Shown: one piece after another, positions 1 through 7,053 of the stretch
How the letters are laid out: each line of letters begins with the position of its first letter
Numbering within the stretch: the stretch's first letter is position 1
From: Anoxynatronum buryatiense
Lineage (GTDB): Bacteria > Bacillota > Clostridia > Peptostreptococcales > Tindalliaceae
DNA: 64,000 bases
Assembly (NCBI RefSeq): GCF_900182905.1
Contig: NZ_FXUF01000005.1
Coordinates: 62,001-126,000 of the forward strand
Direction: 5' to 3'
Made by a program: the position numbers and the translations under genes
Notes under the pieces: generated by a model
Seen by the model: the letters and a program-made list of their open reading frames with translations, nothing else
Told to the model about the DNA's origin: nothing
Databases searched by the model: none

Positions 1-1813
1 TTAGCGTTTCTGGCAGCGGCCTTCCGGTATCGGGATCCCAGCCCATGGTTTCGTAGTAGGTTTTTTGCATCACATCCCATTTTTCCATGATGTTTTTGCC
101 TTCTGCCGGTCCGTCCACCGGCGTGGACCCGTATCGAACAGAGGGTTTTTCATCTTCCGCTTTCAGGCCATGTTCCACATTAAACTGGCGCAGCAGGTGA
201 ACAATCCGCTTGCCTGTTCGGAAGGCATCTTCCAGTTCCCAGTTCCATCCGGTGACCGCATTCAGGGATTTCAACAGTTCTTTAGGCTGGGGAGAAATGA
301 TGCGGCAGGTTCCCAGACAGTCATCAATCTGACGAATACCATTGTATTTGGCCGTGAATGCTGCCACGCCCTCATGATCAAAAGGATCTTCCACACCTTC
401 CATCTCCACAAACTGGGGCTGCACCCCGCCAAAGGTGGACTCGATGGTGCCTGTGTTGCTGATGCACGTATCGAAGAGTTCAAACCAGCGGGTAACGCCC
501 CTGTGGTCATGGCCGCGGGGAGCTGCTCCCTTGCCGCCGTAGATGGCCCACTGGGCTGCCTCGCCGCCCACTTTTCGGGAAGCCCGCATGGTGCCTTCTG
601 CCAAAAGGTTGGCAAAACTGCCTTCCCGCCGTGCAATCCGGTTCAACAGGGTTTTGACGGCTTCCACATTTCCCCAAGTCAGGTCCAACCCATTGGTATC
701 TTCTATGGTAAAAACGCCTTTCTCATAGCACTCCATGGCCCATCCTATCACCCATGAGGCTTCATTACAGTCCATTCCCACCTTGTCCACTTCCGACCCC
801 AGCATCACCACCGACCCCAGTTCGGTGTTGCCAATCTGTGGACCCCAGGCAGCCATCTGCTCGTATTCGGGTTCTTCGCCGACGAACCCCTGGTAGGGGC
901 CTTCAGTGACGGTACACTCCTTTACATGGGCAACCGGACACATGTAACAGGGCGTGGATTTCAGCTTGTAGTGTGTCCGCAGGTACTTGCCGCCCATCTC
1001 TTCATGCTCCGGATAAATGCTGGTGGTGTAGTTGCGAACAGGGAGTGCCCCGATGGTGTGCATATTGGAGAAGTTTCCTCCGGTGCCCCATTCATAAACG
1101 CCTGCAAAGGTTTTCCCAAATTCAAACATTTCCTTGTTCACTTGCTTCAAAGCTTCGGGATCTTTTACCGGTACTTTCTGGCTGCCTTTGTAAACGACGA
1201 CTGCTTTCAGCTTTTTCGAACCCATTACCGCCCCCATGCCATTGTGTGCCACCACATGCCCACGGTCTCCCACAATGGCTGCAAAACGCACCAGGTTTTC
1301 GCCGGCGGGCCCAATGCCGTAGACGCTGACTTCCTTTTCACCGGCGCTCAGCTTTTCCCGTATGGCATCTTCCAGCTCCACGGTGTCCATGCCCACCAGA
1401 TCGGCGGCATCTTCCAACCGGGCTTCACCGTTCTGAACCACCAGGTACACCCATTTTTCTGAAGCCCCCTGAACAATGATTCCATCAATCCCGGCCAGTT
1501 TCATGTATGCACCCATAAACCCGTTGGCCTGAGAAGCACCCGCCAGCTCGGTCACTGCTCCCTTGGTTGTGATGTTAAAGGTTCCTGCGCCTACTGCCCC
1601 GCTGCCTGCCAAGGGGCCCGTTGTCATAATCAGCCGGTTTTCCGGGTCGCTCCAGCCCACCGATGGCTTCACCTCATCATACAGGTACTTGGCACCGAAT
1701 CCCACACCGCCAAGCCATGTTTTCGCCATTTCTTCCGTCACCAACTCTTTCGACAAGATGCCGGTGGTCAAATCACAGCGCAGAATCTGTTCTGCATAAC
1801 CATACAAACTCAT
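1..1813 (-). CDS. Aldehyde:ferredoxin oxidoreductase family protein, 3' end cut by window edge
   Basis: AOR-family tungsto/molybdopterin enzyme; the family oxidises aldehydes (or related substrates) to acids and passes electrons to ferredoxin in the cytoplasm. I translated this frame by hand: 604 codons from an ATG at 1813 behind AAAGGAGG, still open at base 1, so only a few C-terminal residues should be missing (family length about 605-620). The N-terminal glycine-rich segment LGGVGFGAKYLYDE fits the pterin-binding domain. Probable [4Fe-4S] ligands are C289, C292 and C499, with C503 and C300 close by. Odd point: the position of the third ligand of Pyrococcus AOR (Cys295) is His here (H296). 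It is the last visible gene of a five-gene operon starting at 5486. The substrate is unknown; the family call is firm. Confidence 0.93.
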   Translation of the reverse strand, partial: MSLYGYAEQILRCDLTTGILSKELVTEEMAKTWLGGVGFGAKYLYDEVKPSVGWSDPENRLIMTTGPLAGSGAVGAGTFNITTKGAVTELAGASQANGFMGAYMKLAGIDGIIVQGASEKWVYLVVQNGEARLEDAADLVGMDTVELEDAIREKLSAGEKEVSVYGIGPAGENLVRFAAIVGDRGHVVAHNGMGAVMGSKKLKAVVVYKGSQKVPVKDPEALKQVNKEMFEFGKTFAGVYEWGTGGNFSNMHTIGALPVRNYTTSIYPEHEEMGGKYLRTHYKLKSTPCYMCPVAHVKECTVTEGPYQGFVGEEPEYEQMAAWGPQIGNTELGSVVMLGSEVDKVGMDCNEASWVIGWAMECYEKGVFTIEDTNGLDLTWGNVEAVKTLLNRIARREGSFANLLAEGTMRASRKVGGEAAQWAIYGGKGAAPRGHDHRGVTRWFELFDTCISNTGTIESTFGGVQPQFVEMEGVEDPFDHEGVAAFTAKYNGIRQIDDCLGTCRIISPQPKELLKSLNAVTGWNWELEDAFRTGKRIVHLLRQFNVEHGLKAEDEKPSVRYGSTPVDGPAEGKNIMEKWDVMQKTYYETMGWDPDTGRPLPETL

Positions 1814-1843: not shown

Positions 1844-2470
1844 TTACTGGTCGTCCACCATTCGCCTGAGAATTTTTTCCGCCCGGTCCGGATTAAAAAT
1901 GCCGCACTGGCATTGCTTCGCCAGGTCAATGGCATATTCCCGATAATCTCCCCGGCCTTTTTTCAGGTCAAGAACCATCTGTTTTACCAAATTGGCGGAA
2001 ATAAGGCCATGACCGCACATGGTAGTAATTTCCAAAACCGACGCTTCCGGCAGCCGGCCGGTATTGCCCAGAATGCCTCCGGAGAAGTTCACTGTGTGCA
2101 TGTTCAGGCCGGCTTTTTCACAGGCTTTTTTCACTTCCTCCACCACACCGCTGACCACCACCGACATGGCATAGTCAGCTTCTTTCAGTTCGCGAAGAAA
2201 ACCTGCCACCTTTTCCTGTTCGTCAAAAACAAAGTGAATGTAGGAGTTATCTTTCATATTTTTCAGCATTTCTTCGTTGGAACTGCGGAAAATGGGTCCG
2301 GAAAACACTTCTCCATAGTTCACCGGTTCATATTTGACGATAATGTTGAAGATTTCCCGGAGCTTATCGGCTGACTGAACGTTGTTGAATCCCTGCGCTG
2401 CCATGGACAGTACCACAAAATCACGGTTCAGATCTGATGGTTCTCCTTTTCGGTGCAATGAGTGGGTCAT
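1844..2470 (-). CDS. Unknown protein of the AOR operon, 208 aa
   Basis: I do not recognise a named family. The protein is soluble, with no signal peptide or membrane segment. Its N-terminal half is mixed alpha/beta. The C-terminal half has a conserved-looking patch EITTMCGHGLIS followed by a Lys/Arg-rich helix and a terminal KQCQCGIFNPDRAEKIL. The Cys, His and CxC residues could bind metal or a cluster, but this is inference. Its ATG overlaps the TGA of the upstream ferredoxin gene by four bases (ATGA), so the two are translationally coupled. The AOR gene follows 30 bases downstream. The context suggests an accessory or partner subunit of the AOR. Confidence 0.85.
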   Translation of the reverse strand: MTHSLHRKGEPSDLNRDFVVLSMAAQGFNNVQSADKLREIFNIIVKYEPVNYGEVFSGPIFRSSNEEMLKNMKDNSYIHFVFDEQEKVAGFLRELKEADYAMSVVVSGVVEEVKKACEKAGLNMHTVNFSGGILGNTGRLPEASVLEITTMCGHGLISANLVKQMVLDLKKGRGDYREYAIDLAKQCQCGIFNPDRAEKILRRMVDDQ

Positions 2471-3198
2471 TTCGCCACCATCCTTCCCAAACCAACATTC
2501 ACTTTTCCGTTGGGTGCTACCCGCAGGCCGGCTTTTTCAACTTCCTGCATCACGGGGATGGAGCCATCTGCCGACACTTTGCCCACAATGTCCAGACTGA
2601 AGACAGTTTCTGTTGCCTGGGCTGCTTCACGGATAATATCAAAAACTTCTTCTGCCTGTTCCAGGGGAGCGATGAATTCCACAATGGCGGAAAGTACTTT
2701 TTCGTTGGCAGCATCTGTCTTTAACTGGCCGGTGTTTTCATCGGTGATCAGTTCGGTCAAAGGATTGCAGGGTTCCAGTTTGATGCCGGATTCCAGCAAA
2801 CGTCGGATCACCGGCTCAGTTTCTTTCAACCGAAGTCCAATGCCCGGCCGGCCAAACTCCAGGCCAATACCAATCGTTCCTTCAGGAAACCGGTTGGTGA
2901 TATCGGTGGTTTTCATTTCTTCCGTTCCCCTTCCTGGAACATTAGTTCCTTTGTGGGGGTTAAAGGGGTCGCTGAAGGCACTTCGCAAGATACGGGGCCA
3001 GTCCAGGGCTTCCTGAACAAAAGCATCCGTCGGACATACCCGCGCCCGGTAGCAGACAGCGCATTCCACACACTCATCCCTGTTAATAAACGCATAGGCT
3101 TTCTGGTCTTTGCTGCGCCCGCTGTATTCAATGGCCGCTACCGGGCAATAGTTCAGGCATTTCTGGCAGCCGATGCACTTTTCTTGATCAATATACAT
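2467..3198 (-). CDS. Two-cluster ferredoxin with unknown C-terminal domain, 243 aa
   Basis: Residues 1-55 form a bacterial-type ferredoxin. The first cluster motif CIGCQKCLNYCP is canonical; the second, CVECAVCYRARVCP, has five rather than three residues before the last Cys. Residues 90-243 form a domain I do not recognise, probably alpha/beta, containing LEFGRPGIGLRLKE and ending VGLGRMVAK. The likely role is electron transfer to or from the AOR encoded two genes downstream, with the tail docking to a partner. The ATG at 3198 follows GGATGG at a usable distance. A 145-base gap separates it from the upstream 420-residue gene, and its stop overlaps the next start. Confidence 0.9.
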   Translation of the reverse strand: MYIDQEKCIGCQKCLNYCPVAAIEYSGRSKDQKAYAFINRDECVECAVCYRARVCPTDAFVQEALDWPRILRSAFSDPFNPHKGTNVPGRGTEEMKTTDITNRFPEGTIGIGLEFGRPGIGLRLKETEPVIRRLLESGIKLEPCNPLTELITDENTGQLKTDAANEKVLSAIVEFIAPLEQAEEVFDIIREAAQATETVFSLDIVGKVSADGSIPVMQEVEKAGLRVAPNGKVNVGLGRMVAK

Positions 3199-3343: not shown

Positions 3344-4606
3344 CTAGATGCGATGTAGCTTTCGGGCCGGAATGAAGGAGAGTCCTTTTTCCGTCAAAGC
3401 TGCTGCGGTTCGATTGACGGCCTGATGCTTGTCCAGATAATTCTGCTCCAGGCTGGCCATATCGCCGGCTTCCAGAATTTCCGATTTGTCCCGGAAGTAG
3501 TGGAGAATGCTGGAAGGGCTTTCCCGTTCGGCTTCCACATCCGGGTCTCCGCCTTCATGCTTGGCAGCAATGTTAGGTACGCTGGCGGCTATTTCCAGCA
3601 GTTCATCCCTTCGGTTGTAGGGCTGCCGCACAATACTCTGGTAGGTTTCAGTAATGTGGTGTTCAATGCGCACATTGTTTTCTAGATCCAATCGATTGCG
3701 AATGAGCGAACTGATTTCAATGGTTTCATTATCCACGGAGTTGCTCAGGTTAAAGCCCACCAGGGGGGTGGTGCCGTCATCCCGCGAAAACATTTTGGCC
3801 ATCATCAGTGTCCAGAGTACCGAGAAGGGATTGTCGTTACCCATGAACACAGATATCTTGAATTCAATGTCAATTCCCATCTTGTGAAGCATATAGGCGA
3901 TGAACACAGTGCCGGGATTGATGTTTAGTACCTGACTGACACCATACTGGGTATAGTAATAGAGGTATTCGTCAATCCATTTCAATGGATGTTTGTTGGG
4001 TTGTCCAATACCGCCGAAATAGCCGGTGATGGTCTCCGGTCCTCCCAAATGAACGTTGGAGCCGTCTGTTCCTTTGGTATCCAGTGTCTCCACATAGCTG
4101 GCCCCGATGATTTCCATGGCGGCAGCGATGGCGATGGTGTCTCCGTTGTCTCCTTCTGCTTCTTTCATTTTACGCACCCGAATATAACGGCCGGGCATCA
4201 TTTCTTTTTTTTCAATGGCTTGTTTGGCTTCGGTGATCAGCCAAGGAAAGTACTGCAGCGCACTGATTTCAAGGGTAACTGCCTTGCCTTCCTCAAAATA
4301 GGTGCGGGCTGCCAAATCCCCCATGATATTCTGACGGTATTCGCCTACGGTGATAAACGCGCCCTGATCCCGCTGTTCCATCAACCATTCCAGATCCTTC
4401 ACATAGGGTGAATTCATCCGCTTCAACCGATCCATCATCACCGGCAGCTGCCGGGCCTGGCGGGCTTTGGCATTGATCTGCTCGGGTGTTCCGTATTTGC
4501 CAACCACCCGTGTAATTTCCTGGATCAGCGGGTTTCCCGGATCCTTTAAAAATGCATTAATCTCTTCCACTCGTTTCAGGTCAATTTCCAATCGATCTTT
4601 CAACAC
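3344..4606 (-). CDS. Unknown 420-aa protein of the AOR operon
   Basis: I cannot name this family. It is cytoplasmic with a helical N-terminus of about 90 residues. A core at roughly 95-300 is rich in conserved-looking glycine and acidic segments (LDTKGTDGSNVHLGGPET; ISVFMGNDNPFSVLW) that could form a TIM-barrel-like or transferase fold, but that is only an impression. The C-terminus is charged and helical. A GTG start is preceded by AAAGGAG at a rather long 11-base spacing; an earlier ATG at 4610 is in another frame and stops quickly. It lies between the ThiF-like gene and the ferredoxin gene, so a role in AOR substrate supply or cofactor handling is plausible but unproven. Confidence 0.85.
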   Translation of the reverse strand: MLKDRLEIDLKRVEEINAFLKDPGNPLIQEITRVVGKYGTPEQINAKARQARQLPVMMDRLKRMNSPYVKDLEWLMEQRDQGAFITVGEYRQNIMGDLAARTYFEEGKAVTLEISALQYFPWLITEAKQAIEKKEMMPGRYIRVRKMKEAEGDNGDTIAIAAAMEIIGASYVETLDTKGTDGSNVHLGGPETITGYFGGIGQPNKHPLKWIDEYLYYYTQYGVSQVLNINPGTVFIAYMLHKMGIDIEFKISVFMGNDNPFSVLWTLMMAKMFSRDDGTTPLVGFNLSNSVDNETIEISSLIRNRLDLENNVRIEHHITETYQSIVRQPYNRRDELLEIAASVPNIAAKHEGGDPDVEAERESPSSILHYFRDKSEILEAGDMASLEQNYLDKHQAVNRTAAALTEKGLSFIPARKLHRI

Positions 4607-4628: not shown

Positions 4629-5486
4629 TTATACTTCTATGGTCTGCACCGTCCCCTGATATGCGTCCATAATCAGCATCCGGTTGCGGATCAACGTCCC
4701 TTTTCCCGTGATCACTTTAATGGCCTCCTGTACCTGCCAGGCAGCGACCATGGCGGGGCTGGCGGAGGGTGTTCCCATCACTTTTTCAGCGCCCTTCCCA
4801 TCCTGTGAAACACGCATCAACCCGGCAACCCGCTGGTCTTCGGGGAAAACTGTCATCACTTGCCCCCGAAAACCGGCAACGGCACCATGAATCCAGGGAA
4901 TGTTCAGTTCCACGGCCGCCTGCATCAAGTGATTTCGCGAATCTGACGAATCAAGGCAATCCATCAGCAGTTGGCAGTCTTTAAAGCAGTTGATAAAATC
5001 TTCTGCTGTGCATTTCATTGCCACCGCAACGGCTTCGACGGCTGGATTGATTTCCCGGATCCTTCCAACGGCAGCGTCTGCCTTGGAGGTACCCAGCAAA
5101 TCATACCGGGAAAGCGTTTGCCGGTTAAGATTACTTTCTTCAAAGTCATCGCCATCCACACAAACGATGGATCCAAACCCCATTCGTGCCGCCAGTTCTG
5201 CCACATGTCCTCCCAATCCGCCTGCGCCCGCAATGCCAATACGGCTGCGGATAAGAGCTGTTTGCCCGGCAGTGCCAATGGCACGTATATTTCGCACGTA
5301 TTTCTCAGGAATAATCCCTTGCGCCAGGCAGCGAATTTCGAGAATATGAACACTCACATCAAACTGCTTCTGAATTTCCAGCAGCGTTGTCCATACAATT
5401 GACTTGTACCGCTGATTCTGAGATGTTTCTATGACCCGACTGCCTCTCCTGATCGATTCGTCTATTTCTTTCCATTGACCGTCCAC
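4629..5486 (-). CDS. ThiF/MoeB/HesA-family E1-like adenylyltransferase, 285 aa
   Basis: E1-like enzymes adenylate the C-terminal glycine of MoaD/ThiS-type sulfur carriers during pterin-cofactor or thiamine synthesis. The Rossmann nucleotide site IGIAGAGGLGGHVAELAARMG lies near residues 90-110. It is followed by VCVDGDDFEESNLNRQ, the family's D-x-N-R signature, and LMDCLDSSDSRN. The zinc CxxC pairs of classical MoeB are not evident. About 75 N-terminal residues precede the E1 core, as I recall for ThiF-like proteins next to AOR genes. The start is a GTG with GAGGTG upstream. It is the first gene of the operon, 23 bases before the next gene, and is likely to serve pterin sulfuration for the AOR. 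No MoaD-like carrier gene is visible here. Confidence 0.88.
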   Translation of the reverse strand: MDGQWKEIDESIRRGSRVIETSQNQRYKSIVWTTLLEIQKQFDVSVHILEIRCLAQGIIPEKYVRNIRAIGTAGQTALIRSRIGIAGAGGLGGHVAELAARMGFGSIVCVDGDDFEESNLNRQTLSRYDLLGTSKADAAVGRIREINPAVEAVAVAMKCTAEDFINCFKDCQLLMDCLDSSDSRNHLMQAAVELNIPWIHGAVAGFRGQVMTVFPEDQRVAGLMRVSQDGKGAEKVMGTPSASPAMVAAWQVQEAIKVITGKGTLIRNRMLIMDAYQGTVQTIEV

Positions 5487-5595
5487 TCCCTAGCACCTCA
5501 CTTTGCAGGTCAGAAACGCCTTGATTCTCCAGCATGATGTTTCCTTTATGATTATGATCAACATTGTGATTTTTTAATGGTTTCCACATTAATAA

Positions 5596-5611
5596 TGCAA
5601 AGAGTGTGCCA
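5596..5611 (-). promoter_or_regulatory. Sigma-54 (RpoN) promoter of the AOR operon
   Basis: On the minus strand the sequence TGGCAC-ACTCT-TTGCA matches the -24/-12 consensus exactly, with the GG and GC dinucleotides correctly spaced. Transcription should begin near 5584, about 100 bases before the ThiF-like GTG. The repeat arrays at 5673-5730 and 5771-5820 lie upstream where enhancer-binding activators normally bind. Confidence 0.9.
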
Positions 5612-5672
5612 TCTCTGAAAAGTGTGTATTTTCAGCATTTAGTGCCCGTCTTGGAACATCTGATTAAAACTT

Positions 5673-5730
5673 GTTTCATTATTTGTTTCATAATTCGTTT
5701 CATTTGTTTCATATGTTTCATTTGTTTCAA
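5673..5730 (-). repeat. Six direct repeats of GTTTCAT, likely activator (enhancer) sites
   Basis: On the plus strand GTTTCAT or GTTTCAA begins at 5673, 5685, 5697, 5706, 5715 and 5724, with periods of 12, 12, 9, 9 and 9. The array lies about 90-145 bases upstream of the predicted start of the sigma-54 transcript. That is the classical distance for an upstream activating sequence; a repeat with no function is the alternative. Confidence 0.7.
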
Positions 5731-5770
5731 CCATTACGCTTGCTGCCGCCTCTTAATGACGCAACTTCTG

Positions 5771-5820
5771 CCCGTTACTTGCTGTTACTTACTGTTACTT
5801 GCTGTTACTTACTGTTAGTA
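5771..5820 (-). repeat. Ten-base tandem repeat CTGTTACTTR, second upstream array
   Basis: The motif GTTACTT recurs at 5774, 5784, 5794 and 5804, with a partial fifth copy, at an exact 10-base period (about one helical turn). It sits upstream of the GTTTCAT array and the sigma-54 promoter. It could be a second activator or IHF-type site, or simple tandem-repeat expansion. Confidence 0.6.
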
Positions 5821-5964
5821 GTCTTTAATTGCGGCATAAAAAAACTGAACCCCATCATTGATGGAGCTCAGCAGTCTGGTTATCTTATCATCTGTCAATT
5901 TTACCGGGAATATTTCAGTACAGCAGCTGTTTCTTTTTTTCCATGCTGTTTTCAGCACTCAAAA

Positions 5965-7053
5965 TCAGGGGGCCAGCGCTTCCAGTTTGGCAATCACCGC
6001 GTCTCCCACGTCACTGGTGGTGGCGGTGCCACCCAGATCAGGCGTGAGGGCCTGCTCTTCCTGAAGCACCGCTTCCATGGCTTCGAGAATGGCGGCTCCC
6101 CAATCTTCCCGGCCGAAGAAGTCCATCATCTGACTGGCGGACCAGATGGCCGCCAGGGGGTTGGATTTCTGCTGCCCGGCGATGTCGGGAGCTGACCCGT
6201 GGATGGGCTCGAACATGGAGGGGTACTTTCTCTCCGGGTTCAGATTGGCACCTGCGGCCAGGCCCATACCGCCAGCGATGGCGGCTCCCAGGTCGGTGAG
6301 GATATCACCAAAGAGGTTGGAGGTGACCACCACTTCAAAGCGTCCCGGATCACGCACCATGAACATGGCGGCAGCGTCTACCAGGTAGGAATAGGTGACC
6401 ACCTCGGGGTACTCCCGGGCCACTTCCTGAAACACCTGGTCCCAGAACACCATGGAATAGTTCAGGGCATTGGCTTTACTGATACTGGTCAGGCTTCGTC
6501 CTTCTTTTCGGGCCACTTCGAAGGCGTGACGGATGATGCGCTCCGTTCCCTTCCGGGAAAAGACGCCGGTTTGCAGCACCACTTCTTCCGGCTGACCCTT
6601 AAAAAGCCAGTCGCCGGCACCAGCATACTCTCCTTCGGAGTTTTCCCGAATTACCGTCATATTCACGGCTTCCCGCTCCACACCCTTTAGAGGGCAGGGG
6701 GCGCCCTTTAACAGCTTCACCGGCCGCAGGTTGACGTATTGGTCAAAGCCTTTTCGAATCTTTAAGAGCAGGTCCCACAGGGAGATATGATCTGGAACAC
6801 CCGGGTAACCCACGGCTCCCAGGAAGATGGCGTCAAAGGCTTTCAGCTGTTCCAGCCCGTCGTCGGCCATCATTTTTCCTTCCCGCAGGTAATATTCGCA
6901 GCCCCAGGGGAATGCTTCGAAGGTAAAGGCCACGCTGCTGTCCAGTGCCTGGATTTTTTCCAGCACCTTCACACCTTCAGCTACCACTTCAGGACCCACC
7001 CCGTCGCCTCCGATAACGGCTATTTTAAATGGTTGTGTCGTTGGTTCTGTCAT
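5965..7053 (-). CDS. Tartrate/D-malate-type beta-decarboxylating dehydrogenase, 362 aa
   Basis: A member of the isopropylmalate/isocitrate/tartrate dehydrogenase family, NAD-dependent with Mg/Mn. Visible signatures are IAVIGGDGVGPEVV at the N-terminus, the substrate loop VIRENSEGEYAGAG near 135, the catalytic Lys in SISKANALNYS near 190, and the metal-binding NLFGDILTDLGAAI near 245. GDWLFKG and the overall length point to the tartrate dehydrogenase/D-malate dehydrogenase branch rather than LeuB. It ends the serA transcription unit, starting 18 bases after the serA stop. Its true substrate in serine metabolism is an open question; a leucine or isocitrate role is less likely because no leu or TCA genes adjoin. 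Confidence 0.88.
   Translation of the reverse strand: MTEPTTQPFKIAVIGGDGVGPEVVAEGVKVLEKIQALDSSVAFTFEAFPWGCEYYLREGKMMADDGLEQLKAFDAIFLGAVGYPGVPDHISLWDLLLKIRKGFDQYVNLRPVKLLKGAPCPLKGVEREAVNMTVIRENSEGEYAGAGDWLFKGQPEEVVLQTGVFSRKGTERIIRHAFEVARKEGRSLTSISKANALNYSMVFWDQVFQEVAREYPEVVTYSYLVDAAAMFMVRDPGRFEVVVTSNLFGDILTDLGAAIAGGMGLAAGANLNPERKYPSMFEPIHGSAPDIAGQQKSNPLAAIWSASQMMDFFGREDWGAAILEAMEAVLQEEQALTPDLGGTATTSDVGDAVIAKLEALAP

Follow-up and report, generated by a model that had tools for sequence, protein, structure and literature searches.

Sigma-54-dependent control of aor-moaD by AorR has been predicted in Clostridiales by comparative genomics (PMC6615313). The published AorR motif is an inverted TGT-N10-12-ACA, and aor-moaD is its only published target, while UAS are usually located 100-250 bp upstream, with multiple sites being common (PMC6615313). 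In the E. coli K-12 prpR-prpB region, which serves the methylcitrate cycle, TGAAAC is found 115, 105, 93 and 81 bp, and GTTTCA 133 bp, upstream of TGGCACACCCCTTGCT; inverted half-sites (GTTTCA, GTTGCA) are present there, and TGAAAC appears, judged from the sequence, to be the word used by E. coli PrpR. Bacillota also encode PrpR_N-type enhancer-binding proteins, with 36-45% identity to the activator described below over most of its length, and TG[ACT]AAC half-sites are located upstream of their -24/-12 sites as well.

Here, we analysed a stretch of 64,000 nucleotides of Anoxynatronum buryatiense DNA (the window), with an operon for tungsten aldehyde enzymes at its left end (Table 1). As in the AorR system, a sigma-54 promoter precedes an aldehyde oxidoreductase operon that comes with its own activator (PMC6615313), but while the published AorR motif is inverted, the repeats next to this promoter (array A) contain no inverted GTTNCA/TGNAAC pair. 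With E. coli prp the locus shares a consensus -24/-12 site, a PrpR_N-type activator with an RTT(F/L)WR(R/K)L helix, and the same word in the same direction, at a nearly equal distance upstream of the -24 element (67-118 bp as compared to 81-115 bp in E. coli), and partly with a 12-bp step. It differs from E. coli prp in that the activator gene is the last one in the operon and not divergent, a PAS domain is added in the activator, the operon serves aldehyde oxidation, and all six half-sites are direct, with none inverted. The promoters of the Bacillota PrpR_N-type proteins, unlike array A, mostly have inverted pairs and usually two to four half-sites. The locus is a variant of the type of control predicted for aor-moaD, in which the activator is PrpR-like and the putative enhancer consists of direct repeats.

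Table 1. Features of the operon and its control region (window positions, except for the activator gene, which is given by contig)
Feature	Position	Strand	Basis
Aldehyde:ferredoxin oxidoreductase 1 (AOR 1), continues left of the window	1..1813	-	
208-aa protein, recurs next to the 4Fe-4S protein in other genomes	1844..2470	-	
4Fe-4S dicluster protein	2467..3198	-	
420-aa protein, widespread unnamed family, TIM-barrel-like model	3344..4606	-	
ThiF/MoeB-type adenylyltransferase, first operon gene	4629..5486	-	
58-codon ATG leader frame with good ribosome-binding sequence; out of frame with the first gene, which it overlaps	5359..5535	-	
Sigma-54 -24/-12 promoter element TGGCACACTCTTTGCA	5596..5611	-	sequence match, genome-wide site count, rpoN in genome
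Array A, six (A/T)TGAAAC words in one direction, putative enhancer of a PrpR-type activator	5673..5730	-	
Array B, AAGTAACAGY every 10 bp	5774..5817	-	
Intrinsic-terminator-like hairpin, end of the upstream gene, bounds the control region	5844..5872	-	
Isocitrate/isopropylmalate dehydrogenase-type gene, upstream of the control region	5965-7053	-	
PrpR_N-PAS-AAA-HTH_8 sigma-54 activator, 642 aa, last operon gene	C5:50702-52630	-	

The initial annotation had placed a consensus-perfect -24/-12 site 110 bases before the first gene and taken it for the sigma-54 promoter of the AOR operon; the former was confirmed and the latter is supported. The site, TGGCACACTCTTTGCA, reads TGGCAC-ACTCT-TTGCA, has the fixed spacing of TGGCAC-N5-TTGCA/T with its GG and GC, and is located 110 bp ahead of the GTG (5486) of the first operon gene; transcription is predicted to start near 5585. 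The pattern TGGCAN6TTGCW occurs 78 times in the 4.16-Mb genome, as compared to 6 times for the reversed pattern, rpoN is encoded (PF04552, 225.6 bits), and about 33 sigma-54 activators are present. Judged by these numbers, sigma-54 control is a common device in A. buryatiense, a firmicute rich in it, and the TGGCACACTCTTTGCA site is a consensus member. On the minus strand, the order of elements between the end of the gene at 5965 and the GTG is hairpin, array B, array A, and the promoter site. A similarity search with the control-region DNA against plasmids found no match. A second genomic copy of GTTTCATATGTTTCAT (contig C16) lies within a coding gene and was put down to chance.

Array A consists of six GTTTCA words (in plus-strand reading) that start at 5673, 5685, 5697, 5706, 5715, and 5724. 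The steps from 5673 upward are 12, 12, 9, 9, and 9 bp, and the words lie, in the same order, 67, 79, 91, 100, 109, and 118 bp upstream of TGGCA, or at about -88 to -145 relative to the predicted start. The earlier description, GTTTCAT six times with 9/12-base periods about 90-145 bases upstream, was correct as to the number of words, the steps, and the distance, but only five of the words are GTTTCAT, the last one being GTTTCAA. Similarly, the phasing ascribed to both arrays applies to array B (10 bp), but not to array A, whose steps of 9 and 12 bp, 10.2 on average, do not keep even phase with the helix.

When the intergenic region was resampled 20,000 times under a Markov model, six TGAAAC or four AGTAAC words were never reached. 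Among 3,000 resamplings, the most frequent non-trivial hexamer usually occurred 3-4 times and at most 8 times, and the hexamer count of array A by itself is only modestly surprising. As such counts can reach 5-8, the case rests on spacing, uniqueness, and comparison. The other 77 -24/-12 sites of the genome have at most two TGAAAC words each, and TGAAAC-type words are at expectation there. Within array A the cores are identical while the spacers differ, unlike in simple slippage. PrpR-type enhancers are recognized by TG[AC]AAC half-sites upstream of a -24/-12 site, and six TGAAAC are present here; because inverted GTTNCA/TGNAAC pairs are absent from the whole control region, we term array A a variant and not a standard PrpR-type enhancer.

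Could array A be no more than a short tandem repeat, neutral and without a role in transcription? TGAAAC tandem repeats do occur inside genes of other genomes, with no sigma-54 site. However, array A is intergenic, between a terminator and a promoter, its cores are conserved while its spacers vary, and the same word is found at the corresponding place in the E. coli prp operator, which makes a neutral repeat highly improbable. Runs of at least three TGAAAC were found in 15 of the 398 phylum genomes; apart from array A, the runs that were read were mostly coding repeats, and no -24/-12 site was present downstream of any of them. The 9-bp ATGAAAC arrays of other class genomes were rejected as counterparts, as they were coding or devoid of a -24/-12 site. 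A search for the orthologous promoter in 148 relatives and 391 class genomes did not find any. The A. buryatiense genome has a second copy of the 420-aa gene (G000:C2:174761-176017), which was discarded as a source of an orthologous promoter, as it lies outside an AOR operon and has no ThiF. Three loci with relatives of the 420-aa protein, a sigma-54 site, and an activator (L045, L053, L056) were also discarded: their activators have a different helix, and their promoters lack TG[AC]AAC. In one genome (L137, G161:C69, about 294-318 and 445-465), intergenic GTGAAACATATGAAACATATGAAAC occurs just before a TctB-like gene, and another TGAAACATATGAAAC lies upstream; no -24/-12 site was seen there.

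A linked sigma-54 activator gene, predicted to lie left of the window, is indeed present, at the end of this operon. Its product combines a PrpR_N domain (PF06506, 77.3 bits) with a sigma-54 AAA domain (PF00158, 229.3 bits), the GAFTGA motif being present in the translation, and a Fis-type HTH (PF02954, 53.7 bits). Its score against the NCBIfam PrpR equivalog, 381.4 bits, is below the cut-off of 499.2; although expected to act in the manner of PrpR, it is not filed as such. The recognition helix, GRTTLWRKL, resembles that of E. coli PrpR, SRTTFWRRL, and among the 30 better-scoring of the genome's about 33 activators, which were compared, no other has a helix of this type.

To relate the helix type to the half-site, we used PrpR-like activators of relatives and of the 398 phylum genomes, and scanned the region 40-290 bp upstream of nearby -24/-12 sites. 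TG[AC]AAC was present in 22 of the 25 firmicute promoters near PrpR-like genes with an R[ST]T[LIF]WR[KR] helix and in 0 of the 14 near genes without it, although this is not an independent set, since the helix pattern was drawn up after sight of part of the tested data. Fisher's test gave 4.5e-8 for the 39 loci, and 1.6e-4 when these were collapsed to families (8/8 vs 0/7), both values being guides only, as the loci are related to one another. Of the words, the TGAAAC hypothesis predated the helix test, coming from the window and E. coli, while TGCAAC and TGTAAC emerged during it. Observed and expected numbers were 25 vs 3.8 for TGAAAC, 24 vs 3.2 for TGCAAC, and 13 vs 2.0 for TGTAAC; these three were the only clearly raised words among all 16 NGNAAC words, and those with a first base other than T were near expectation. 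Outside the phylum, the small sample contained one locus with a matching helix and a -24/-12 site, and its promoter had no TG[AC]AAC. At the promoters of relatives of the linked activator the half-sites mostly form inverted pairs, either GTTNCA-N3/4-TGNAAC or a version of it that is wider by about two helical turns (23 pairs vs 0.2 expected). A side observation on the relatives L199-L227 and on E. coli (L198) is that the RTTLWRK-type helix goes with TG[ACT]AAC in inverted pairs, which are either compact (N3/4) or expanded (about N24/25). Same-direction half-sites within 60 bp number six in the window, as compared to four in E. coli and no more than three in relatives. With the association of the RTTLWRK-type helix and TG[AC]AAC as a simple rule, targets can be predicted for many PrpR-like activators of anaerobes that are as yet uncharacterised.

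As its helix type and the half-site match, the linked activator should bind array A, which is very probably its enhancer; the initial view of these repeats as an activator-site array is in line with that, since they consist of the half-site found with matching-helix PrpR-like activators. It is unlikely that, at a sigma-54-dependent promoter, the protein on array A is another activator or an unrelated regulator. The genome does encode about 33 sigma-54 activators, and enhancer-binding proteins need not be linked to their targets (PMC6615313), but of the 30 activators compared only the linked one has the matching helix, and word and helix co-occur across families.

In the mechanism that we propose for the linked activator, each TGAAAC would be one half-site for its Fis-type recognition helix. 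Upon sensing a ligand through PrpR_N, the activator would assemble on array A, loop to E-sigma-54 at 5611-5596, and open the promoter, so that the tungsto-enzyme operon would be transcribed together with the activator's own gene, resulting in autoregulation. Binding, ligand control, looping, and autoregulation are expected here from what the activator family does. The initial proposal that the operon is tied to a specific signal can be narrowed to a PrpR_N-type ligand, but no further. The presence of epimerase-like and PanB-like genes and of a Liv-type transporter hints, as a guess, at branched or methylated acids. Taken as a whole, the explanation in which array A is the UAS of the operon's own PrpR-like activator, and array B a duplication with no demonstrated role, is probably correct. 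For an operon of tungsten aldehyde oxidoreductases, it pairs an activator with its DNA word.

Having direct repeats only, the layout offers a natural test case for the loading of Fis-type activators onto DNA. Six direct half-sites, one per protomer, might let the DNA template the assembly of a hexamer, in place of dimers bound to inverted sites, but we consider this decidedly unlikely.

Further up, the initial annotation had described a 10-base-period array of four to five CTGTTACTTR units, and array B is just that: four perfect AGTAAC words (minus strand) and one degenerate unit, 167-197 bp upstream, with an exact 10-bp period. In Tandem Repeats Finder it appears as 2.2 copies of a 20-bp unit, with 100% matches. 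The whole unit is identical, with no contrast between core and spacer, unlike in array A. As array A keeps its cores while its spacers vary, and all of array B is identical, we read the former as selected sites and the latter, most likely, as a tandem duplication of recent date, for which a weak role is conceivable. Its paired pattern does not occur elsewhere in the genome, and AGTAAC was not enriched upstream of PrpR-linked promoters (3 vs 2.6) or of the genome's own sigma-54 promoters (3 vs 4.0).

These results do not support array B as the array of a second activator, a reading that the initial annotation had suggested. Two activators, with array A serving the linked PrpR-like protein and array B another activator or a modulator, would provide combined control, and both the exact period of array B and its location, inside the 100-250 bp at which enhancers usually lie (PMC6615313), would fit. 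However, the lack of AGTAAC enrichment, the uniqueness of the paired pattern, and the perfect 20-bp identity, which fits a recent duplication, make this quite unlikely. Array B could also offer the linked activator additional, weaker half-sites, allowing cooperative or low-affinity loading, as if AGTAAC were a variant of TGTAAC, to which it is close and which is enriched; moreover, the relative L199 has AGTAACA just ahead of TGAAAC. Yet the first T of the half-site appears to be strict, as variants that start with A, C, or G are not enriched, and we regard a weaker set as rather unlikely.

The operon presumably controlled from this putative enhancer comprises 17 genes on the minus strand and extends to the left beyond the window; the same-strand genes from 5486 leftward presumably form one transcript. 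AOR 1 is followed by genes for a ThiS/MoaD-like protein, a PCC-domain protein, and a five-gene ABC transporter of the branched-chain-amino-acid type (Liv-type), and then by those for a glyoxalase/epimerase-type protein, AOR 2, a second ThiS-like protein, a PanB homologue, and, as the last one, the PrpR-like activator. The leader frame in front of the first gene had no family match and may be fortuitous. The family of the 420-aa protein is strongly conserved; its members range from Bacillota to Asgard archaea, and some are encoded next to a PanB homologue. No sequence matches to this protein were found in Pfam, NCBIfam, or PDB, and for its TIM-barrel-like model the matches in Foldseek were only weak (class II aldolase, E 5e-5, TM 0.34-0.46). 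The genes of the 4Fe-4S and 208-aa proteins (1844-3198, minus strand) are adjacent also in several distant class members (L131-L134), where they occur without the rest of the operon.
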